From the NCBI RefSeq assembly GCF_001536065.1, contig NZ_CZVW01000015.1, positions 1-51,119 of the forward strand: a stretch of DNA of 51,119 nucleotides, written 5' to 3'. Each line of letters begins with the position of its first letter. Position 1 is the first letter of the stretch. The stretch comes from Candidatus Chryseopegocella kryptomonas. GTDB lineage: Bacteria > Bacteroidota > Ignavibacteria > Kryptoniales > Kryptoniaceae. The notes beneath the pieces are model-generated. The model worked only from the letters and a program-made list of their open reading frames with translations, ran no database searches and was not told the DNA's origin. Positions 11,274 through 42,749 of this stretch are shown here, in pieces. A program made the translations under genes and the position numbers.

Positions 11274-11302
11274 AGCACGAACTTGGATTTATTTTTAAAA
11301 AC

Positions 11303-11704
11303 CTGGTGCGGGTCTATAAGCCAAATTCTGTCTATCCCACGCAAAAGTGGGAGAGGTGGTTATTTCTCTTCTGCGACCTACCCGAGAGTCCTTCGCCATC
11401 AAAGGCGAAGCTGAGGCGGGCAACCTCAGCCCCGTTTTTCAACAGGGGTCCTCTCCTATTTGGTCTTGCTCCATAAGGGGTTTACCCTGCTCCCGATATC
11501 GCTATCGGGACGGTGGGCTCTTACCCCACCTTTTCACCCTTACCCCGACTCAAAAGTCGGGGCGGTATGTTTTCTGTGGCACTTTCCATCTCCAGCGGAT
11601 GTGGCCACTGGAGTTCCTGATTGCTCAGGACTTAACGCCCTAAGGAGTTTGGACTTTCCTCCCTCTGCTTCAAAAGCAGAGGGCAACCACCCGACCCGCA
11701 CCAG
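11303..11704 (-). ncRNA. rnpB: RNase P RNA, bacterial type A
   Basis: RNase P RNA is the catalytic RNA that matures tRNA 5' ends. On the minus strand the universally conserved GAGGAAAGTCC box is the reverse complement of 11651-11661, and the 3' conserved ACAGAA-N3-GGCTTAT box is the reverse complement of 11316-11331. The ends form a perfect 12-bp P1 helix (11303-11314 with 11693-11704), fixing the limits at about 400 nt. Several internal stems are G+C-rich, unlike the surrounding coding DNA. It begins 3 bp after the zinc-ribbon gene stop. A TAAAGT element about 6 nt before the 5' end could be a -10 box, or the RNA may be processed from the upstream transcript. Confidence 0.95.
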
Positions 11705-32839: not shown

Positions 32840-33307
32840 TCAATTGCTCTTTTTTCTCTCCTCACGAATCTTCTTCGCTAAATCAAACATACTTTGATAA
32901 TCAAGCACTTTACCACCGTAAATTTTTGCAAATTCATCCGCTTCTTTTTTGCTTGCAAAAGAAAATTCAGGCAACATCGCCCTTACCGGGGATATTACGC
33001 TTCCAACGACGAACCACGATTTTTTAGCGTCAACGAGCTTGAATGTTTTAAAATCAACCACCTTTACATCTTTAACATTTTTCCCTTCCATTATAGCGGT
33101 TGCACAGCCAATGCCACACGCGTGATAAACAGTATCAGCAACTTCAATTTCAACTCGTGTCATCATTTTTTCAAATACATCCATTCCACAAACACTACAT
33201 GTCCCGAGTTTTTTGCCAAGGTCTGGTTTTAAAATATCCATCATTGATTGAGCGAAAATTGAAGCCGGCAAAAGCAAAAGAGCCAGAATTAAAATTTTAA
33301 TTTTCAT
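32840..33307 (-). CDS. NosL-family periplasmic protein
   Basis: A 155-residue exported protein with a cleavable signal peptide (MKIKILILALLLLPASIFAQ, no lipobox). The mature domain has the NosL signature CSVCGMDVFEK (CxxCxM, metal-binding in NosL) and a second Cys/His cluster, YHACGIGCATAIMEG. NosL proteins bind Cu(I) and deliver it to NosZ. This copy follows the TonB receptor rather than lying in the nos operon, so it is probably a periplasmic copper acceptor for imported metal. ATG 33307 has GGTGAG upstream; the receptor stop overlaps its Shine-Dalgarno region. Confidence 0.85.
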   Translation of the reverse strand: MKIKILILALLLLPASIFAQSMMDILKPDLGKKLGTCSVCGMDVFEKMMTRVEIEVADTVYHACGIGCATAIMEGKNVKDVKVVDFKTFKLVDAKKSWFVVGSVISPVRAMLPEFSFASKKEADEFAKIYGGKVLDYQSMFDLAKKIREERKKSN

Positions 33308-33309
33308 AT

Positions 33310-35586
33310 TCACTCACCAACTTTCATTGTTATGTTGATAAAGAAATTGCGTCCGGGCTCATAAATTGGAATTCCGCTTGTTCTAATTTTTCTGTTAAGA
33401 TGCTCATAGTAAGCTTTATCAAAAAGATTGTTCACGCCTACGGAAATATCTGCAAATTTAAAATATACGATATCAACGAGGAAATTGACAAGGACAAATC
33501 CGGGAGTTGAAGTTTCACCAAAGCTTGTTGATACATCGCTCTTTCGTGCAACAGCTCTTATCGTCAACTCAGGTCTTATTTTTCCATCAAAGAAGTTATA
33601 ATAAACAACTGTCTTTGCTTCAAATGGCGGAATCTCGGGCAATGCTTCACCAGTTACAGCATCCCATGCCTTTGTCTGATAAATGTTAAGGTCAAATCCA
33701 AATGTCCTGCTAAACGTTGATGTATAACCAAGTTCAAATCCAAAGAACTTTGCTCTGTCAATGTTGACAAACTGCTTCACACCGCGAACTCCCATGTTCT
33801 TGGGCGTAAGATCGCTTCTTATCTTTGCAGAGATAAAGTTCTTAACATAGTAATAGAAAACATCGCCTTTGAATATGCCTCCGATGACTTTGCTCTTTAA
33901 AATCAAATCAATGCTGTTATTTGTCTCTGGCTTTATTGATGGATTCCCGACATAATCATAATTATCAATTCCGATTGGGAGAAAGTTTATAAATCTTTCA
34001 CTTATGTTCGGGCTTCTCTTTGCTGAACCAGCAAGAATTGTTAATTGCACATTTGGAGTAATTGCTTTATCTAAACCACCGCTGAAGCTGAAATTATGAA
34101 ACTTGGAAGACAAATTACCAAACAATTTTGCAAAAGATGGAGCTGGCGTTCGTGCTTGTGCGTAATTCACATCGTATCTTGCAGAAAGCATCAAATTAAA
34201 TCCATAAATTCCTGTCCTGAATTCACCAAAAATTCCGAAATTTGAAACATAAGAATTTTGCCATACCGTATCAATGAAAGTTTTACCAGCCATTGGACCC
34301 GTTTTCATTTTCCTCGTTCTGAAACCATCCTTTTCAACTTTCGCATAATCAAAACCGACATAAAGCAAATTATTTCCAAAAATTAAACCTGCTTCACCTC
34401 TTCCACCTGTAACTTTTGTATTCGCCTCCGTGACCGCATCAACATTGAGTCTCGTTGGCTTGAATTCGTTATCCATCAAGTGATAAACTTTTGAATAATA
34501 AGCTTTAAGATTGACGCTATTTATCAACGAGTTTAAATTTCTCGCTCCATAATCAATTGAAATTATCCTTGAATCATCTTTTCTACCGTCCATAGGAAGT
34601 GCTGGATAAAGAACATCACGAGCGTATGTCTCACGAATAGAAAATTGAACTCTATGATTATCGCCCAAATTAACACCAAATTTCCCAGTCCAATCTCTGA
34701 TTTTAAAACTTGACTGAATTTCATTTCCATCGCCATCTTTATAATTTTTATAATCTTTCACTCCACCAGCAATTCTAAAATCAAACAATCTCTGTCCTCC
34801 GAAAAGCGTCAATCTTGCAACTTTGCCATTCCAATTGCTTTCATAACCTGTTTCAATGTTTCCACCGATAGAAAACTTTTCAAATCTTTTTGGCTTCGCA
34901 AGGACAAAATTCATAACACCACCAATGTTGGGTCCATAACGCAAGGCATAGGGTCCTTTTAAAATTTCTATTTTTTCAAGGTCTTCAGCTTGAACATGCG
35001 AAGTTGGCGGGTCCATTCTGTTTGGGCAAGCTGCTTCAATCTTAACACCATTATCAATTTGAACATTTATCTGGTCAAACTTTGTCCCTCTCACAACTGG
35101 ATCAAGAGCATAGCCACCTTTTTTAATTGCGGATGTATTGGAGAAATTTCTCACGAAATCACCAAGATCACGAGGTGCCTTTTTCATAATCTCTCTTCCT
35201 CCAATCTCTGCCTGATTATATGTCTCGGCTGGTCTCCCAAGAACAACAATCTCCTCAACCGAAAAATAAGGCAATTCTTCAAGATAAACTTCAACCGTTT
35301 TAACTTCACCAGATTTAAGTTGAATTTGCTCCTTCGTCTGTTTATAACCGACATAAGAAACGACAAGATTGTAATTTCCAGGCGCAAGATTTTTTATCTC
35401 AAAATAACCTTTGAAATCCGAGACATCACCACGATTTGTTCCCTCAATCCATATATTTGCATTCACAAGAGGATATTTCGCTTTTGAATCATAGACAAAG
35501 CCACGAATTGTCGCTTTTTCCTGCGCAAATGAAATTTGAAAAGATACGAAAATAAACACCACAAGTGTGAAAATGGCTCTTCTCAT
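33310..35586 (-). CDS. TonB-dependent outer-membrane receptor, OprC/NosA-like copper importer
   Basis: A 758-residue TonB-dependent receptor: signal peptide (1-21, ending FAQ), carboxypeptidase-D-like beta domain (about 25-105), plug (about 110-235 with DPVVRGTKFDQINVQIDN and EILKGPYALRYGPNIGGVMN), then a 22-strand-type barrel ending in aromatic FFINITMKVGE. The plug loop EAACPNRMDPPTSH has a CxxxM pair (C187, M191), and the barrel loop KVYHLMDNEF has HxM (H369, M371). These match in type and spacing the CxxxM-HxM copper site known from Pseudomonas OprC. NosA is the same family in denitrifiers. AGGAGGG sits 8 nt before the ATG but can pair with the end of the upstream ORF. Confidence 0.9.
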   Translation of the reverse strand: MRRAIFTLVVFIFVSFQISFAQEKATIRGFVYDSKAKYPLVNANIWIEGTNRGDVSDFKGYFEIKNLAPGNYNLVVSYVGYKQTKEQIQLKSGEVKTVEVYLEELPYFSVEEIVVLGRPAETYNQAEIGGREIMKKAPRDLGDFVRNFSNTSAIKKGGYALDPVVRGTKFDQINVQIDNGVKIEAACPNRMDPPTSHVQAEDLEKIEILKGPYALRYGPNIGGVMNFVLAKPKRFEKFSIGGNIETGYESNWNGKVARLTLFGGQRLFDFRIAGGVKDYKNYKDGDGNEIQSSFKIRDWTGKFGVNLGDNHRVQFSIRETYARDVLYPALPMDGRKDDSRIISIDYGARNLNSLINSVNLKAYYSKVYHLMDNEFKPTRLNVDAVTEANTKVTGGRGEAGLIFGNNLLYVGFDYAKVEKDGFRTRKMKTGPMAGKTFIDTVWQNSYVSNFGIFGEFRTGIYGFNLMLSARYDVNYAQARTPAPSFAKLFGNLSSKFHNFSFSGGLDKAITPNVQLTILAGSAKRSPNISERFINFLPIGIDNYDYVGNPSIKPETNNSIDLILKSKVIGGIFKGDVFYYYVKNFISAKIRSDLTPKNMGVRGVKQFVNIDRAKFFGFELGYTSTFSRTFGFDLNIYQTKAWDAVTGEALPEIPPFEAKTVVYYNFFDGKIRPELTIRAVARKSDVSTSFGETSTPGFVLVNFLVDIVYFKFADISVGVNNLFDKAYYEHLNRKIRTSGIPIYEPGRNFFINITMKVGE

Positions 35587-35594
35587 GGCTATAA

Positions 35595-35677
35595 CCCTCC
35601 TGATTTTTTGTTTGTTTAAAATTTCCAGAAAATTTAAAACGGTAATGTTGATTTGTGGGGATTTTTAATCAGGAGGG
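35595..35677 (-). promoter_or_regulatory. Long-range hairpin sequestering the receptor ribosome-binding site
   Basis: On the minus-strand RNA, CCCTCCTGATT (complement of 35667-35677, the last codons of the Cys-rich ORF) pairs perfectly over 11 bp with AATCAGGAGGG (complement of 35595-35605). The latter contains the whole Shine-Dalgarno of the TonB receptor. The loop is 61 nt. A ribosome ending at the UAA 35665-35667 would cover the anti-Shine-Dalgarno arm, which predicts translational coupling. Confidence 0.55.
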
Positions 35678-36027
35678 TGGAAAATTTCGGTTTGGGAAAT
35701 TGAAATGTTTAAGTTCTCAACAATTGTGAAAAATTTTTGTTGATTGAAAGGGAATAAATCCTTTTTAGTTTCAAATTTTGCCTCTTTTATCGGGAAATCG
35801 GAAACATTTTTGACTTTTTTACATCCGCAACCCGTGGAATCTAAACAAACAAAATTAATCAGGTTAATTCCAATTTTACCTTTACATCCGCATTTGCAAT
35901 TTTCTTCACATTGGCACACTCCACCGTGGCAATGGTTTTTCCCAGACGGCAGAATCACAAGCACATAATTAAGGCTCACCACGAAAACAAGTAAAAGCGA
36001 AAATATTTTGTAAAACCTAACTTGCAC
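35665..36027 (-). CDS. Small Cys/His-rich exported protein, candidate copper-sensing leader ORF
   Basis: A 120-residue protein I cannot place in a named family. An N-terminal hydrophobic segment (about residues 7-27, FSLLLVFVVSLNYVLVIL) is followed by a dense metal-ligand block NHCHGGVCQCEENCKCGCKG and a second CLDSTGCGCKK; nine Cys in all (33, 38, 40, 44, 46, 48, 61, 67, 69). The C-terminal 50 residues are ordinary and end FHPPD. The start is GTG. It is the first gene of the operon with the copper-type receptor. It resembles in design the Cys-containing DUF2946-type upstream ORF (CruR) reported to control a TonB receptor in Bordetella in response to copper, though sequence similarity is not evident. 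A metallothionein-like periplasmic role is also possible. Confidence 0.7.
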   Translation of the reverse strand: MQVRFYKIFSLLLVFVVSLNYVLVILPSGKNHCHGGVCQCEENCKCGCKGKIGINLINFVCLDSTGCGCKKVKNVSDFPIKEAKFETKKDLFPFNQQKFFTIVENLNISISQTEIFHPPD

Positions 36028-36133
36028 CTAAACTTTTGAAAATTGTTTGACGATTTTCTAAAAATTTAACTCAACATTCCAACGCAAAGTTCCACTCCCA
36101 CGATTAGAATTTCTTTAACAAAAAATTGAAATT

Positions 36134-36156
36134 CCCCCCTCCGATATGGAGGGGGG
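36134..36156 (-). terminator. Probable terminator at the 3' end of the nos operon
   Basis: A perfect 9-bp stem (CCCCCCTCC 36134-36142 with GGAGGGGGG 36148-36156) and 5-nt loop follow the 128-residue gene by 6 bp. The downstream tract on the minus strand is A/T-rich (AATTTCAATTTTTTG) rather than pure T. Confidence 0.65.
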
Positions 36157-36161
36157 AAAGA

Positions 36162-36548
36162 TTAACTTCCTTTCTTCTTAACCTTAACTTGCAAACTGTT
36201 AAGTGCAAGGGTTAACTTCGTTCCTGCCTCAACATAATATCTCCACGCATACCCAAGCTGTAAAAAAACATCTTCGTTATACTCGCCTTTGTCCATGCGG
36301 GCTTTTTGCTTGTTCATAATTTCATCCGCAAGATTAAGCCAGTATTGTGCATCTGTTAAATCCTTCTTCACAACATCTGTTTGTTCAGATTTTTTAACTT
36401 GGTCAAGAAGATTCAGCACAACATTTTTCACAGCGACATTGTCGTTATACTGCTTTTCGCAGGTTGTCTTCCAGTCCTTTTGCCCCTGCGCAAGTGCAAG
36501 TGAAAAAGTAAATACCAAACCTGTTAAGATAAAAATCAGGCGCTTCAT
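36162..36548 (-). CDS. Small exported protein of unknown function, last gene of the nos operon
   Basis: A 128-residue protein with a clear signal peptide (MKRLIFILTGLVFTFSLALA) and a helical mature domain rich in K, D and Q, including a single Cys near the N terminus (KTTCEKQYND) and aromatic-rich YAWRYYVEAGTKLTLALN. I do not recognise the family. ATG 36548 follows GGAGG with 7-nt spacing; the GTG 15 bp upstream is rejected. Its position 21 bp after nosY suggests a periplasmic accessory role in N2O reduction. Confidence 0.75.
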   Translation of the reverse strand: MKRLIFILTGLVFTFSLALAQGQKDWKTTCEKQYNDNVAVKNVVLNLLDQVKKSEQTDVVKKDLTDAQYWLNLADEIMNKQKARMDKGEYNEDVFLQLGYAWRYYVEAGTKLTLALNSLQVKVKKKGS

Positions 36549-36569
36549 TTTTTCTTCCTCCACTTTTGT

Positions 36570-37421
36570 TTAACTTATGTCTTGTTTTGAAAAAATTTTG
36601 ATTGATAGAAAAGTTGTTGCAATAAACCAGAAAATTAAATCAGCAATTAAAATCACATAGGTTTGCAAGCTCCCGCCCATAAACTTCAAAAACGCTGCAC
36701 CAGCTGGACCGAAAATTTCAGGTGAGTTCAGAGTTATCAAACTTAACACACGAACGATGTCAACAGGATTTCCAAGAAGTGAAACCATTGCGAAAGTTGC
36801 TGCAACTTTGCCCTTTAAAAATGTCGTCGCCCCAATTATCACAAGATCGTAAAAAATTAGAAAAAGAAACCAAACAAGAATTGAGATCCCAAAAGCCCTC
36901 GCCCTTTGCTTTGCAATTGCACATACAAAAGCCGAAATCCCAATGAACACAAATCCAAGAAGATTTGAAAGCAAAACAAAAACAAGATATTTGAACACAC
37001 CTTCTGCACCAACCCTCATCAAAATAATAAAACCACTTATCCCAAACCCAAGAGCAGTCGCACTAAAAATGACGATTAACAAACCTAACAATTTCCCCGC
37101 TTGAATCTCCCAACGATTCAAAGGTTGTGAATAAAGTATCTCATTTAATCTTCCATCACCAGAAAAACTCATGACTCCGATGACAAGAGAAACAAGTGGA
37201 ATGATGTAAAGAATCAAATTAAGCAAACTCAAAGTCGTCCTTGAAAAATCCTGCATGCTCCCCGTGTATCCACTTGCTGTCAATCCAAAATAAGAAATTC
37301 CAAGGACAAGAATTGTAAAGATTGCTGTAAAAATATGCGTCCACTTATTCCTAACGCTTGTGATGACCTCCGTCTCCGCAACAGTTAAAATTGCATTTCC
37401 AGATAAAGCAAAATTTTTCAT
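36570..37421 (-). CDS. nosY: NosY, ABC transporter permease for NosZ maturation
   Basis: A 283-residue ABC-2-type permease with about six transmembrane helices. It is the membrane partner of NosF, and together with NosD it is required to build the NosZ copper centre. The N terminus has TVAETEVITSVRNKWTHIF; GVMSFSGDGRLNEILYSQPL with NRWEIQAGKLLG is the coupling-helix region typical of NosY. The ATG follows GAAGTGAG and lies 1 bp after the nosL stop, within a continuous operon. Confidence 0.93.
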   Translation of the reverse strand: MKNFALSGNAILTVAETEVITSVRNKWTHIFTAIFTILVLGISYFGLTASGYTGSMQDFSRTTLSLLNLILYIIPLVSLVIGVMSFSGDGRLNEILYSQPLNRWEIQAGKLLGLLIVIFSATALGFGISGFIILMRVGAEGVFKYLVFVLLSNLLGFVFIGISAFVCAIAKQRARAFGISILVWFLFLIFYDLVIIGATTFLKGKVAATFAMVSLLGNPVDIVRVLSLITLNSPEIFGPAGAAFLKFMGGSLQTYVILIADLIFWFIATTFLSIKIFSKQDIS

Positions 37422-37422
37422 C

Positions 37423-37863
37423 TCACTTCAAAATTTTAATTTCAAGTTGTTCATAAGGAAATTCTTCCCCGCCGTATTCTCTCATAAATCTCTCAAGCGA
37501 TTCCTTCGTTTTAAATGTGACGACAAAATAATTCATCGGCGTTTGAATTTTCTCCGACCTGACGAAATAAGCGTTTTCAATCTTAACCCATTCTTTCGTG
37601 TAAAAATCCCTCACAAACATAACCGAGCCATCGGGCAAATTCTTCATCTTTTTAAATTCAATCATACATCCAATGTCGTCAAACTTATAAACTTCACCAT
37701 CTGGAGTGACTATCTCCGTTGCAAAATTGAGTTGAGAAATTGCCATCTTGCAAAGATAACAAACATCATAAGGTTCAATTTCTTCAGGTCTTAACTCTTT
37801 TGAACACGAGAAAAATAAAATTGACAAAGTCAAAATTAACGCTGTTTTAACTTGTCCTTTCAT
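37423..37863 (-). CDS. nosL: NosL, copper-chaperone lipoprotein
   Basis: A lipoprotein of about 146 residues that binds Cu(I) and delivers it for NosZ assembly. The lipobox is ILFFSC near residue 20, and the metal motif is CYLCKMAISQLNFATEI (CxxCxM). DDIGCMIEFKK and FVRDFYTKEW are also typical of NosL. ATG 37863 is chosen over the TTG 9 bp upstream. It overlaps nosF by 17 bp. Confidence 0.93.
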   Translation of the reverse strand: MKGQVKTALILTLSILFFSCSKELRPEEIEPYDVCYLCKMAISQLNFATEIVTPDGEVYKFDDIGCMIEFKKMKNLPDGSVMFVRDFYTKEWVKIENAYFVRSEKIQTPMNYFVVTFKTKESLERFMREYGGEEFPYEQLEIKILK

Positions 37864-38758
37864 GTTCTTCAATTAATTTTTGGTAAATTGATTCAAAAGA
37901 TTGGCTTGATGTCTGGAAATTTTCAATTTGTGCTCCACTTTCCTTGATCTTAAAAAGTATGTCAAGAATTTTGCTTGACTCCGCTTTTATAATCATACTT
38001 GTTCCATTTCTTCTAACCTCAAGCGCTCCATAATCGTATGCAACTTTAACGAAATCATCTTGCATATTTTTCACGACAAGATAAATTTTTGACTCAAACT
38101 TTAACTTCTTTTTTAATTCGCTTGCGTTTTCAAAAGTTATCAATTTCCCGCTCACAAGAACCCCAACTTTATCCGCAAATTCATCAACTTCGTTCAAAAG
38201 ATGAGTTGTAAAAAGAATTGTTTTACCCTCTTTTTTCAAATTTGAAAGAAGAGATTTAAACCTCATCACACCTTCGGGGTCTAAACTCAATGTCGGCTCA
38301 TCAAGAATTAAAATCGGGACATCGGGAAGAAGAGCAATTGCAATTCCCAAACGCTGTGCATTACCTCCAGAGAGTTCACGACTGTATTTTCCAAGTATAT
38401 CTTTCAAGTTCAAAGTTTCAATCACATATTCAACTCTTTGAGCCGACAAATTTCTCACTTTTCTGAAAAACTCAAGTATCTCAATCACTTTCAAATTTTC
38501 GTGAAGAGCAACTCTTTGCGGAAGAAAACTCAAAAACTGTCTTGCTTTTTTGGGCTCTTTTAAAGCATCTACTCCATTGATGTGAATTTCACCTTCATCA
38601 GGGATCACAAGCCCGACGATTGATTTGAGCGTGGTTGTTTTACCGCTTCCATTTGGACCAAGCAAAACCACCGTCTCATTTTCTTCAACGCTGAAACTTA
38701 CACCATTTACCGCAAAAACATCGCCGTATGATTTTTTTAAATTTTTAACCGAAAGCAT
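37847..38758 (-). CDS. nosF: NosF, ABC transporter ATPase for NosZ maturation
   Basis: A 303-residue cytoplasmic ATPase. Walker A LLGPNGSGKTTTLKSIVGL (about 32-50), Q-loop FLPQRVALHENL, signature ELSGGNAQRLGIAIAL, Walker B ILILDEPTLSLDPEG, and switch His in LFTTHLLNEVDE are all intact. It powers the NosDY complex. The ATG overlaps the nosD stop by 14 bp. Confidence 0.95.
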   Translation of the reverse strand: MLSVKNLKKSYGDVFAVNGVSFSVEENETVVLLGPNGSGKTTTLKSIVGLVIPDEGEIHINGVDALKEPKKARQFLSFLPQRVALHENLKVIEILEFFRKVRNLSAQRVEYVIETLNLKDILGKYSRELSGGNAQRLGIAIALLPDVPILILDEPTLSLDPEGVMRFKSLLSNLKKEGKTILFTTHLLNEVDEFADKVGVLVSGKLITFENASELKKKLKFESKIYLVVKNMQDDFVKVAYDYGALEVRRNGTSMIIKAESSKILDILFKIKESGAQIENFQTSSQSFESIYQKLIEEHERTS

Positions 38759-40163
38759 ATCTTGACCTCAAGATTTTTGATTGAATCAGAAGAATCAAAA
38801 AAGGAACAAAAGCCATAAGTCCAATTGCAACAACTATGAAAAACGCAATCTTTCTATTTTCCTCGCCACGAGCGACTTCTCTTTTGACAAGATATGTTAG
38901 ATCAGGGATTTCAACTTTTCTCATCAGCGGATGTTCATCATAGATATTAAACGACTTAACAATCGGCATTGCTTTTTCTGCTATTTCAATCGCTTTCGCA
39001 CTCGGGCTTGACAGATAAAGTTGCAGGGCTGGATATTTCCCTTGAATTGATTCAAAAACATTTGTTAACTTGAACTTCACATCTCCAACGCCATCATTAT
39101 CAAGATCGTATCCGAGATATCCGTCCCAGTAATTTCCCCTGCCATTGTTGCTGAATTGAGTTGTCTTCGGATTTCCAATTGTCCTGATCAAAGCAAGATT
39201 TCCAATGAAATTATTTTCGTAAATTTTATCATAGTTCGCACTTGCAAAAAGTGCGATAGCAAGGTCATTGTTCATAACAAGATTCCTGCGAATGATGTTG
39301 TAATTTGTGCTTTCAAAATGAAGCCCTATTGAATTATCAATTACATAATTTTCTTCAGCAACGCAATAATCGCAAGATTGAAGCAAAAGTCCGTAAGAAC
39401 TAAATCCACGATTTCTCGCAAAGATATTTCTTTTGAAATAAATATGCCTTGAATACATCACTGCACCACCAACGACATCATTAATGAAAACATTTTCCTC
39501 AAATCTGTTTGAATCCGAAAACATATAATGAATCCCGTATCTTAAATCGGTTGCGTAATTTCTTCGGATCAAATTGTTTGAAGATTCCTGAATATACATT
39601 CCATCTCTTACCTTCGTGATGAAATTCTCTTCAACAAGGTTGAAGTGCGAATTCCAGATGTGAAGTCCGCTCCCACGCTCACCTATGCCAAGATAAGGTC
39701 TTCCGATGACGGTATTTCTTCTCACAATATTATAGTTTGAAGCGAAGAAATAAATACCGAAAAGAACATCTTCAAGTAGGTTATTTTCAACGATGTTGTA
39801 TGAAGAATTTTTTAGAAGGATTCCAGAATCTTCTTTTTGCAGTAAATTTCCTCCACCTGTAATTTTAAATCCATTTATCACGCATGAATCCGCAAGAACT
39901 GTGACTGTGCTCCCCCAGTTTTCGCCTTTTATCCACGGTCTTCCAACACCGATCAATACAAGTGGTTTTTCAAGAAATATATTCCCGAAATATTCCCCGC
40001 CGTAGACATAAATAGTATCGTGTGGTTTTGCAACCGCAATTGCTTCCTTTATAGTTTTGAATTCGTAATTTTTCCCAACTTTTAAAACATCCGCAATGCT
40101 TGAACAAAAAAGTAATGAAAGCAAAAAAGAAATTTTCAAAATATGTCCTGATAAAATTTTCAC
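38745..40163 (-). CDS. nosD: NosD, periplasmic right-handed beta-helix maturation protein
   Basis: A 472-residue exported beta-helix protein of the CASH/NosD type that works with NosFY and NosL to load copper into NosZ. Repeats such as SYNIVENNLLEDVLFGIYFF and NYNIIRRNLVMNNDLAIALF with ladder Asn/Ile are plain. GRGNYWDGYLGYDLDNDGVG is the NosD calcium-like signature. A hydrophobic helix near the C terminus (KIAFFIVVAIGLMAFVPFLI) suggests membrane anchoring. The GTG start overlaps nosB by 4 bp; TTG 40139 with AGGA upstream would give a cleaner signal peptide (KISFLLSLLFCSS). Confidence 0.94.
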   Translation of the reverse strand: MKILSGHILKISFLLSLLFCSSIADVLKVGKNYEFKTIKEAIAVAKPHDTIYVYGGEYFGNIFLEKPLVLIGVGRPWIKGENWGSTVTVLADSCVINGFKITGGGNLLQKEDSGILLKNSSYNIVENNLLEDVLFGIYFFASNYNIVRRNTVIGRPYLGIGERGSGLHIWNSHFNLVEENFITKVRDGMYIQESSNNLIRRNYATDLRYGIHYMFSDSNRFEENVFINDVVGGAVMYSRHIYFKRNIFARNRGFSSYGLLLQSCDYCVAEENYVIDNSIGLHFESTNYNIIRRNLVMNNDLAIALFASANYDKIYENNFIGNLALIRTIGNPKTTQFSNNGRGNYWDGYLGYDLDNDGVGDVKFKLTNVFESIQGKYPALQLYLSSPSAKAIEIAEKAMPIVKSFNIYDEHPLMRKVEIPDLTYLVKREVARGEENRKIAFFIVVAIGLMAFVPFLILLIQSKILRSRYAFG

Positions 40164-40789
40164 TCTGTTTTCACTTCTTTTGATGTTAATATCAAAGCGA
40201 CAACAAGCGTCAGAAGTGATAACAAAAGTCCAATTGAGCCAAGATCAGGATAACTATAAACTGTGAATTGTGCTATTAATTTTTTCCCCAAAAGAGGTGG
40301 AGTAAATGGTTGAACTTTTATCGGCGCATCTGGAGCAAGATTATGCCCATAGGTGTAAAGTTTGTTGTAAAAATCAAGTATTGAGAAAATTCCAACATAA
40401 AGATACATAACGATCAAGTCAACAAGCGTTGAAATTTTCCCAAGGACAACCGCTCTTAAAGCAAGAAGCCCCAAAGCACCAAAGACAAACGGAAGATATG
40501 TAAACTCTGCAAAATCACTTTGAGAAAGTGGCTTCATACCGATGTAATGGTTGAGCGTATTGATTTCACGGAGATCATCTCTGCCTGCAGTTTTACCGCC
40601 TTCAAGCTTATAGGAGTAAATGTAAAGTTTTAAACCATCGGGATAGAATGTCGCAAAAAATTGCATTCTCCATAAAGGGAAGAAGAAAACCGCAAGAAGG
40701 AAGATTACAGAAATAAAAATAACAAGTCGTGATTTCAGGTTCAAAGGTGTGTCCTGGAGTTTTTCCCACTTTTGAATTATTCGCTCCAT
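40160..40789 (-). CDS. nosB: Membrane protein in the NosB position
   Basis: A protein of about 209 residues with four or five predicted membrane helices: LVIFISVIFLLAVFFFPLWR near the N terminus, YLPFVFGALGLLALRAVVL, LVDLIVMYLYVGIFSIL, and a C-terminal IGLLLSLLTLVVALIL. The soluble loop has INTLNHYIGMKPL with His and Met as possible metal ligands. Clade II nos clusters carry an uncharacterised membrane gene, nosB, between nosZ and nosD; this gene is in that position, and the symbol rests on position. ATG 40789 has GGGAG upstream; the longer ATG frame would begin inside the nosZ-nosB hairpin. Confidence 0.7.
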   Translation of the reverse strand: MERIIQKWEKLQDTPLNLKSRLVIFISVIFLLAVFFFPLWRMQFFATFYPDGLKLYIYSYKLEGGKTAGRDDLREINTLNHYIGMKPLSQSDFAEFTYLPFVFGALGLLALRAVVLGKISTLVDLIVMYLYVGIFSILDFYNKLYTYGHNLAPDAPIKVQPFTPPLLGKKLIAQFTVYSYPDLGSIGLLLSLLTLVVALILTSKEVKTE

Positions 40790-40824
40790 TTTTGCGTTCT
40801 CCCTATTAAATTTTTTGATAGAAC

Positions 40825-40846
40825 GGGGTGGCATTTAAGCCACCCC
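40825..40846 (-). promoter_or_regulatory. Intercistronic hairpin between nosZ and nosB
   Basis: A perfect 8-bp stem GGGGTGGC (40825-40832) with GCCACCCC (40839-40846) and 6-nt loop lies between the nosZ stop and the nosB start. On the minus strand it is not followed at once by a T-run, although TTTTTT occurs about 8 nt later. It could stabilise nosZ mRNA or partly terminate. Confidence 0.6.
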
Positions 40847-40859
40847 TTAAGTGTTTAAT

Positions 40860-42749
40860 TTACTTTTGTGCTACACCAGCTCCGCCTTTCGGCTTAACAA
40901 GAAGATAACCCTGCATCTCTTGATGGAGAGCAGAGCAGAAGTTTGTGCAATAGAATGGATAAACGCCCGGTTTATTTGCAACGAATTCAATCGTCTTTGT
41001 CTCGCCTGGGTCAACAACAACATTTATATCATACTCACAAATTGCAAATCCATGAAGTTCGTCCGTCGTCTGCTCAATGTTTGTAAGATGAATTATAACT
41101 TTATCTCCTTGATTAACTTCAATCTTCCACGGTTGGAACCTTGACCTTACCGCTATCATCCAAACCTCAACCGTATTCCCCTTTCGCACAACTTTTGCAT
41201 CTTTCTCATCCCAGATCGCATTCGGATTCTTATTATCAATACCTTTTTGATAAACTTCAATAACTTTATCTTTAAGTTTGTCCGCTCTAATTGCTTTCGC
41301 ATAATGTGGTTCCGGTTCTGTAAAAGCATCGTAAAGCAATTTCATCTTTTCACCTGTTATATCAATTAACTGTGATGCCTCTGGCTGGGATGGTCCAACT
41401 GTGAGATGCCTTCCGTGAGAAAGCTTATTTAAAGCGATGACATACTTCCCAGCCGGATGCTTTGTGTCACCTTCGGGAACACAAAGATGTCCGATGTTAT
41501 AAGCGATCGGTATTTTATCAACAACTTCCCAAGTCCCAAGTTTCCACTTTGCGATTGCACTTTCAACGAAAAGCGATGTATAAGCATAACCTTTATCATC
41601 AAACTGCGTGTGAAGTGGACCAAGCCCAACTGGAACCTCTGCTTCACGAACGCTTTCGTATCTCAAAACTGGAATTCCATCTTCTTCACCAACAAAATCT
41701 TTATTCTCAATTGCTTTGAGCATTTTTTCAAAGTTATAAACTGTCGTTATGCTCTGCAATTTCCCGCTTCCAACGATCCACTTACCATCTGGGCTGACAT
41801 CAACTCCGTGCGGTGATTTAGCACATGGCATAAGATAAACAACCCCGGGAGCTTCTTTCGGGTCAATCACTCTGACGCCGTTAATAATTTTATACTTACC
41901 CTGCTTCAAGTATTCCTCTGCTTTCTTCCAGTTAACAGCTGCAATGTAATCACGATCATTTTGAGAAGCTGTTATTTCAAGGATTCCTGTTGCTCTTTCG
42001 GAGTTATAGCATGTCCAGAAAACCCAGCCATGGCTTGGTCCTTTTCCAGCGTCTCCAAGGTCAAAGTTAAACGGTGGCATTAAAACCTGGAATCCATGCT
42101 TTTCATCCATTCTCATCTCACCTGTTTTAGGATCAACTTCAACAAGCGCAACAATTCCGTGATATTTCTTCGCATATTCCTCAACTGGGACATATGTTCC
42201 TTTTGGAATTGGGACAGAAAATCTTGTCGCAATTGTGACATATTCAGTATTTTCGGTTACAAAAGTTGAGCCATGATTTCCGGAGAGATTTGGAATTGGA
42301 CCAAGTATTTGCTTCACTTTGAAATCTTTGAGGTCAATTCTTGCGATGCGATTATTTGCGTTATCATTGATGAAAAGCCATCTTCCGTCATAATCTCCAT
42401 TCGTTTCGCTCAATGCAGGGTGATGCGCATCTCCCCAAGTGTAGCCACCAAGCATTTTCTTTGTCTCAGCGTCAAAACCATAGCCAGTTGATGGATAAGG
42501 TGTGAAAACCGGAATAGTGCAGATGTGTCTCATTGATGGAATCCCTGCAACAAAGATATTTCCTGAATGTCCACCTGAATAGAACAGATAAAATTCGTCA
42601 AGGTCACCGGGTGGAACATAAGTTGCAAGTGCTGCTTCAACTGCTTCTGACTTAACTGCTTCTTTTCCGGGTTTGCAGCTGTGGAAAACGATTGCAACAG
42701 CAACAAAGGTAATTAAAATGCCGAGGACAATTTGAAGTTGCCTTTTCAT
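40860..42749 (-). CDS. nosZ: Nitrous-oxide reductase, clade II, Sec-exported
   Basis: NosZ reduces N2O to N2 in the periplasm. The 629-residue protein has a CuZ-type beta-propeller with ligand histidines in GDAHHPA, NHGSTF, KSPHGVDVSPDG, GPLHTQFDD, NIGHLCV and EPEPHYAKA. The C-terminal cupredoxin with CuA has DELHGFA, CTNFCSALHQEM. The leader (MKRQLQIVLGILITFVAVAI) has no twin arginine, typical of clade II, and Cys25 in VFHSCKPG looks like a lipobox, so it may be a lipoprotein. AGGAGGG precedes the ATG. It follows the pentaheme cytochrome by 23 bp, the likely electron donor. Confidence 0.97.
   Translation of the reverse strand: MKRQLQIVLGILITFVAVAIVFHSCKPGKEAVKSEAVEAALATYVPPGDLDEFYLFYSGGHSGNIFVAGIPSMRHICTIPVFTPYPSTGYGFDAETKKMLGGYTWGDAHHPALSETNGDYDGRWLFINDNANNRIARIDLKDFKVKQILGPIPNLSGNHGSTFVTENTEYVTIATRFSVPIPKGTYVPVEEYAKKYHGIVALVEVDPKTGEMRMDEKHGFQVLMPPFNFDLGDAGKGPSHGWVFWTCYNSERATGILEITASQNDRDYIAAVNWKKAEEYLKQGKYKIINGVRVIDPKEAPGVVYLMPCAKSPHGVDVSPDGKWIVGSGKLQSITTVYNFEKMLKAIENKDFVGEEDGIPVLRYESVREAEVPVGLGPLHTQFDDKGYAYTSLFVESAIAKWKLGTWEVVDKIPIAYNIGHLCVPEGDTKHPAGKYVIALNKLSHGRHLTVGPSQPEASQLIDITGEKMKLLYDAFTEPEPHYAKAIRADKLKDKVIEVYQKGIDNKNPNAIWDEKDAKVVRKGNTVEVWMIAVRSRFQPWKIEVNQGDKVIIHLTNIEQTTDELHGFAICEYDINVVVDPGETKTIEFVANKPGVYPFYCTNFCSALHQEMQGYLLVKPKGGAGVAQK

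Follow-up and report, generated by a model that had tools for sequence, protein, structure and literature searches.

The window analysed here comprises positions 1-51,119 of contig NZ_CZVW01000015.1 of a Candidatus Kryptonium genome (RefSeq assembly GCF_001536065.1, listed under Candidatus Chryseopegocella kryptomonas). Its minus strand carries a gene for an OprC-like TonB-dependent receptor of 758 aa (33310..35586, with the ATG at 35586). Directly after the receptor, a gene for a NosL-like protein (32840..33313, minus strand; PF05573, E 2.5e-08) is probably part of the receptor's transcript. A nitrous oxide reductase cluster (36570-42749, minus strand) lies directly upstream of the locus and includes a Sec-type NosZ, NosD, an ABC ATPase and NosL; the Sec-dependent NosZ and NosD both exceed their own curated cut-offs. 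Kryptonia, which were reported to encode nitrous oxide reductase, are known from pH-neutral springs of high temperature (PMC4737851). Between the nos genes and the leader described below, a gene for a small exported-looking protein (36162-36563, minus strand) occupies the same position in four congener loci; its matches are weak (Vta1 of Pfam at E 0.0065; Gpos_C8_like of NCBIfam at E 0.00027 and 20.7 bits, against a cut-off of 27). A terminator-like hairpin (36132..36158, minus strand) separates the nos cluster side from the leader, and is weak evidence by itself, since two such hairpins were found where 1.1 are expected. The sole Rfam match at gathering score within the window is the RNase P RNA (RF00010, 241.4 bits; 11301-11702, minus strand).

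That the receptor is of the copper type, as the first-pass annotation of the window had it, agrees with a PDB sequence search in which OprC (6fok) was the first match of five receptors (E 1.9e-39). The ACPNRMD and HxMDN stretches of the receptor align with the same motifs of the OprC sequence, and the CxxxM (C187, M191) and HxM (H369, M371) ligands, reported as the OprC copper site (PMC11836926), are invariant in the five Kryptonium receptors. Because its score against TIGR01778 (TonB-dependent copper receptor), 214.8 bits, lies below the curated cut-off of 472.45, we term the receptor OprC-like. It thus shares CxxxM-HxM with OprC (PDB 6fok and others) but differs in this score and in an additional match to an N-terminal CarbopepD_reg domain.

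The receptor is preceded on the same strand by a leader ORF of 120 aa (35665..36027, minus strand), which starts with GTG, encodes nine Cys and ends in EIFHPPD followed by the stop codon TAA (35665..35667, minus strand). Its N-terminus is hydrophobic and, as judged by eye, signal-like. The codons from Cys33 to Cys69 (35821..35931, minus strand) form a Cys block, and those of FHPP (35671..35682, minus strand) encode the presumed arrest motif. Like the CutF-like leaders selected in PMC9973294, the leader is shorter than 150 aa, has its Pro-Pro (Pro118-Pro119 of 120) within the last 15 residues and is followed within 1,000 nt, here after 78 nt, by the next gene on the same strand. No Pfam family matched it at E<=1, the DUF2946 model included, in line with the initial view that it is unrelated to the family of CruR. 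Membership in DUF2946/CruR was accordingly rejected: besides the lack of a model match, FHPP takes the place of RAPP in all five Kryptonium leaders, and CXXC is absent from the window leader, which has instead a CxC 48 residues from Pro-Pro. The HYC_CC_PP family of NCBIfam (NF047658) was rejected as well, as none of the five Kryptonium leaders matched its model at E<=5; nor was a match to this model found elsewhere in the same genome (G000).

The end of the leader gene is complementary to the Shine-Dalgarno (SD) region of the receptor. The anti-SD arm ACCCUCCUGAUU (35678-35667, minus strand), which lies within the codons for HPPD and takes in one base of the stop codon, is perfectly complementary over 12 nt to the SD arm AAUCAGGAGGGU (35605-35594, minus strand). 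The 11 nt reported earlier are thereby extended by one A-U pair, and the stop codon does touch the anti-SD arm, as had been noticed, its first base lying inside it. This arm pairing is real and unusual. When the mononucleotides of the upstream stretch were shuffled 20,000 times, 2 shuffles gave a match of at least 12 and 15 gave one of at least 11. A survey of the same genome took in 20 stretches besides the window, 451 kb altogether, and listed 487 ORFs no shorter than 100 aa, of which 75 have a strong SD; among these the receptor has the longest perfect complement between a start region and its upstream stretch, 12 nt, followed by 8 nt in three genes. Folding the minus-strand RNA of the leader end and the receptor start, a check that had been proposed for the pairing, gave a minimum free energy of -23.5 kcal/mol (z -2.39), a value that 4 out of 200 shuffles reached. 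Synonymous recoding with the amino acids fixed yielded p = 0.0645 for the window locus alone; this value is weak because HPPD itself dictates much of the arm, and it is therefore the comparison of related loci that carries the argument. A search of the genome (79% complete) for the usual 16S 3' end returned no match, and we draw no inference from it. An RNA thermometer, in which the hairpin melts at the growth temperature of a thermophile, would suit the high-temperature spring habitat (PMC4737851), but the SD core of the window is predicted to stay paired with a probability of at least 0.99 from 37 to 80 C, and we regard this explanation as the least probable of those considered.

As the window leader used as a query across 148 phylum genomes retrieved only itself, the receptor was taken as the search anchor. 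It was found in 5 of 41 genomes, its own and four congeners at 72-76% identity, and the leader, sought in 391 genomes, is present in those same five. Both thus occur together in five of the seven genomes of the genus, while neither was detected at the thresholds used in the other two, G151 (97% complete) and G152 (71% complete). Scanning genome contigs with the receptor alignment returned three loci, two of which were already in the Kryptonium set, and the same locus was seen in Candidatus Kryptonium thompsonii (L054) and in a Ca. Kryptonia MAG (L055). The four congener leaders are 34-46% identical to the window leader, with seven of the nine Cys and FHPP invariant throughout.

Both arms are present in all five Kryptonium loci, each leader pairing with its own SD. 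In four loci the second Pro codon reads CCU, opposite AGGAGG, and in the fifth (L012) it reads CCG, opposite CGGAGG; the third base of the codon that follows is U, A, G and G facing A, U, C and C, being unpaired in L012. Over the 12-pair helix, 86.7% of cells are paired (12 of 500 shuffles as high) and 3 of the 12 pairs have changed on both sides (26 of 500 as high). The covariation score of 0.167 compares with 0.048 for shuffles, 10 of which in 500 score as high, and with at most 0.092 for slid versions, a result based on five sequences of one genus. The proposal that the 3' end of the Cys-rich leader sequesters the receptor SD gains from these paired changes and from its conservation at 5/5 loci. 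Homologous loci keeping leader and receptor but lacking the arms had been named as evidence against it; there are none among the four other Kryptonium loci, but more distant pairs of leader and gene, such as L118 and L131, are of this kind.

Counted from the last base of the second Pro codon, GGAGG is 70, 65, 73, 67 and 70 nt away in the window and L010-L013, respectively, whereas the stop codon is 3, 30, 12, 27 and 21 nt away. The residues between Cys and the first Pro number 56, 50 and 48 in four of the five leaders, and 67, 56 and 50 in L018; the gap between leader and receptor is 45-78 nt. With Pro-Pro-SD and Cys-Pro-Pro spacing nearly fixed and the stop varying, we take the Pro-Pro codons rather than the stop codon as the fixed point of the arrangement, and the stop codon, which earlier had served as the landmark, loses that role. 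In L011 the same codons are able to form a local hairpin, CCUCCUGAGGAGG, a would-be competitor of the SD pairing.

A folding model in which a ribosome on Pro-Pro was represented by blocking 30 nt around these codons (20 loci, L132 left out) points the same way. At 37 C and with no ribosome, predicted access to the SD core is at most 0.004 in all five Kryptonium loci; with a ribosome on Pro-Pro it rises in every one of them, to 0.055-0.288, a partial opening in the model. With the ribosome at the stop codon, the predicted access is 0.175 for the window, 0.070 for L016 and 0.000 for the other three, and with a ribosome 20 codons upstream at most 0.001. The corresponding values at 70 C are 0.197-0.532 for Pro-Pro and, for the stop codon, 0.535 (window), 0.346 (L016) and at most 0.015 in the rest; at this temperature the SD of L015 is predicted to be already 0.132 open with no ribosome. 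The first-pass annotation had a ribosome finishing the leader as the trigger, which does not fit a stop codon that opens the SD clearly in two of five loci, against five of five for Pro-Pro; according to the model, a ribosome arrested on Pro-Pro is the likelier opener.

Plain translational coupling, by which leader translation would be needed for the receptor with neither arrest nor copper input, can account for part of these observations, given that a passing ribosome would open the stem too and that pairing and conservation alone do not require arrest. It does not explain, however, why FHPP and seven Cys are invariant and at fixed spacing in leaders of such low identity, or why the position of the stop codon is free to vary, and we consider it unlikely. 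The nine Cys and the export-like N-terminus would also befit a working copper-binding protein, a chaperone or scavenger, with the pairing merely setting its ratio to the receptor. Yet the sequence outside the Cys and FHPP diverges fast, and the products of CruR and CutF were reported as undetected or short-lived (PMC9426467; PMC9973294), which makes this reading quite improbable.

The explanation we somewhat favour is that the nascent leader peptide controls translation of the copper receptor, a Pro-Pro arrest in copper-poor cells turning it on and copper bound to the Cys block turning it off. Folding and conservation suggest that, with no ribosome near, the last codons of the leader would pair with the receptor SD and keep the receptor shut. 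When copper is scarce, a ribosome translating the putatively exported, Cys-rich leader would arrest at the Pro-Pro codons, by analogy with CruR, for which RAPP was reported to be required for expression and CXXC, 45 residues away, for copper control (PMC9426467), and for which arrest was reported in vitro, the P and A sites both holding Pro codons (PMC12992588). The arrested ribosome would cover the anti-SD arm, the arm being those very Pro-Pro codons, and a second ribosome could then start the receptor 78-84 nt downstream. Plentiful copper, again as for CruR, would bind the Cys block, which lies some 48-50 residues ahead of the point of arrest; this would lift the arrest, the hairpin would re-form and uptake would stop. 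Judging from the gene neighbourhood, the imported copper may be destined for the nitrous oxide reductase encoded next to the locus.

The same hairpin could in principle work in the opposite sense, copper lengthening the Pro-Pro pause and turning the downstream gene on. The CutF leader of Rhodobacter reportedly operates thus, with a Cys motif, a proline-rich C-terminus and an SD-shielding stem-loop (PMC9973294), and the anatomy of the Kryptonium locus is compatible with this sense. The downstream gene here is nonetheless an OprC-like uptake receptor, for which repression by copper is expected, and the receptor under CruR is copper-repressed (PMC9426467). As the target is an uptake receptor, the CruR sense (copper off) fits better, and we think it unlikely that the CutF sense applies. 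Rho-dependent termination between leader and receptor, with SD pairing secondary, is the model proposed for CruR (PMC9426467); with a gap of 45-78 nt here against 162 bp in CruR, and with the SD pairing conserved, we judge it very unlikely at this locus.

Copper leaders that combine a C-terminal Pro-Pro with an SD-shielding stem-loop are already known, and many CutF-like leaders with a C-terminal Pro-Pro were counted in Bacteroidota, one of their main groups (PMC9973294); the first-pass annotation had not brought up this shared Pro-Pro. Another survey found the RAPP/RGPP leaders of copper genes to be absent from groups such as Bacteroidota (PMC12992588), which fits the FHPP-type motif found here. 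The CutF-like leader of R. capsulatus cutFOG, an exported one, likewise is a short Cys ORF with a near-C-terminal Pro-Pro, a short gap and an RNA-shielded SD; its stem-loop, however, is described as intergenic, and the anti-SD was mutated apart from the protein, whereas the anti-SD of Kryptonium consists of the Pro-Pro codons, and copper turns CutO on, whereas in Kryptonium repression by copper is expected (PMC9973294). CruR/DUF2946 of B. pertussis resembles the Kryptonium leader in heading an operon before a TonB copper receptor and in placing a Cys motif about 45-50 residues ahead of a C-terminal Pro-Pro motif, but has RAPP, CXXC, Rho and a gap of 162 bp instead of FHPP, CxC, SD pairing and a short gap (PMC9426467). 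HYC_CC_PP leaders (NF047658) of Bacteroidota, which are exported, are also Cys-rich small ORFs with a near-C-terminal Pro-Pro and metal genes downstream; unlike in the Kryptonium leader, their Pro-Pro is farther from the C-terminus and the arm sits at the stop codon, mostly with no SD. In SecM, MifM, VemP and related arrest peptides, an arrested ribosome likewise breaks an SD-hiding stem, but these sense protein export and are unrelated in sequence (PMC7897499, PMC10987492). What sets the Kryptonium leader apart is that the Pro-Pro codons themselves are the anti-SD, a trait that several related loci lack; otherwise it would work like CruR and CutF. We found no literature on an FHPP copper leader, and none was evident on Pro-Pro codons as anti-SD; both negatives are weak, most subscription journals and supplements lying outside the coverage of the search.

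Two starting points, copper receptors (20 of 341 class genomes have a TIGR01778 match at E<=1e-40) and MbnP (41 of 341), led to a second leader family, here called A4 (type NxDKPxxxCxGKC with a C-terminal Pro-Pro), which was seen in 42 class genomes out of 323. The four members from which the family was founded have no match in Pfam. A4 leaders (L114-L157) precede TonB-like receptors and MbnP genes. For the Kryptonium type (A1), five weak matches were obtained outside the genus, of which L019, L020, L022 and L023 were dropped by eye and L021, which ends in FHPPEVLPV and is followed by an MbnP gene, was kept. Pro-Pro falls within the last 30 residues in 48 of 49 leaders, that is, six of A1 and 43 of the 44 A4 places, L127 at a contig end having been dropped. 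Homology between A1 and A4 was rejected, hhalign aligning only seven columns around FHPP with a probability of 0.84%. As the two families have no detectable similarity beyond FHPP, either convergence or deep divergence is implied.

The synonymous test was applied to 47 of these leaders, leaving out L128, which lacked an identifiable start, and L130, in which the frame of the leader overlaps the next gene. The last 45 nt of the leader pair with the start region better than synonymous recodings do, at p<0.025, in 10 of the 24 loci with an SD-like start: four from Kryptonium, L135, L138 and L139 of a single family, and L119, L137 and L140. The starts of L134, L135 and L139 were hand-set from the SD and start codon, and two of these three are among the loci with p<0.025. 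A single locus reaches p<0.05 among the 23 without an SD-like start. The other 14 SD loci are not below p = 0.025, with L118, L125, L131 and L147 at 0.59-0.99; when a ribosome is modelled at 37 C, the SD does not really open in L114, L115, L118 and L131. Many A4 leaders have no SD. The end of the leader has its best partner (rank 1) in the start region in 11 of 20 SD loci.

CCG as the second Pro codon, opposite CGGAGG, is seen again in G192, G177 and G388. Across 11 loci with both core motifs, that position is U-A in four, G-C in four and unpaired in three; these loci were chosen for CCTCC at Pro-Pro and for GGAGG, which excludes L118 and L131 (GGAGG, with no CCTCC there) as well as L135, L138 and L139. 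When SDs were swapped among the leaders of eight loci, roughly one from each genus, the native combinations stood out at p = 0.0005; this set omits L114 and L118 (of the genus of L115), among others. In a preselected set of seven loci, flank pairs number 26 against 16 (p = 0.005), and restricting the comparison to Kryptonium gives p = 0.017.

HYC_CC_PP leaders occur in 34 of 118 phylum genomes. Thirty of their loci (L024-L053) were examined and a start was found for 27, in 15 of which the region of the stop codon pairs at p<0.05 with the stretch before the next start. The pairing extends to as many as 16 nt (L038) and mostly involves no SD; in L043, ACTCTCCTT does pair with an SD, AAGGAGAGT. 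In DUF2946 leaders on Enterobacter and Serratia plasmids (L179:1605-1821 and L181:1607-1821), ten bases pair between AGCCTGTTTT, located just after the RAPP codons, and AAAACAGGCT, ahead of the receptor in its start region. Blocking Pro-Pro at 37 C raises the predicted SD access from 0.001 to 0.138 in L181 and leaves it essentially as it was in L179 (0.393 to 0.400).

We put forward tentatively, with rather less confidence than the mechanism proposed for Kryptonium, that a single stretch of code serves both as arrest motif and as switch. Pro-Pro written as CCU CCU (or CCU CCG) is an anti-SD, and copper leaders may repeatedly have set their arrest codons opposite the next SD, the match being kept through compensating changes of third bases, and this in two or more leader families whose detectable similarity is confined to FHPP. 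HYC_CC_PP and some DUF2946 leaders, with the arm at or after the stop side, would follow the same principle with another offset from stall to arm, and this offset may set whether copper acts as an on or an off signal.

If the proposed mechanism is true, copper-controlled nascent-peptide regulation reaches Candidatus Kryptonium, whose leader has no match in Pfam or NCBIfam under the thresholds applied. The design would be compact and testable, with one set of codons doing double duty as presumed arrest motif and as RNA switch, and suggests an RNA-level reason for the recurrence of a C-terminal Pro-Pro in unrelated leaders. It also offers a route for finding targets, by matching the last codons of a leader against the start region of the next gene. 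For the organism itself, it would tie a copper receptor to the neighbouring nitrous oxide reductase cluster.
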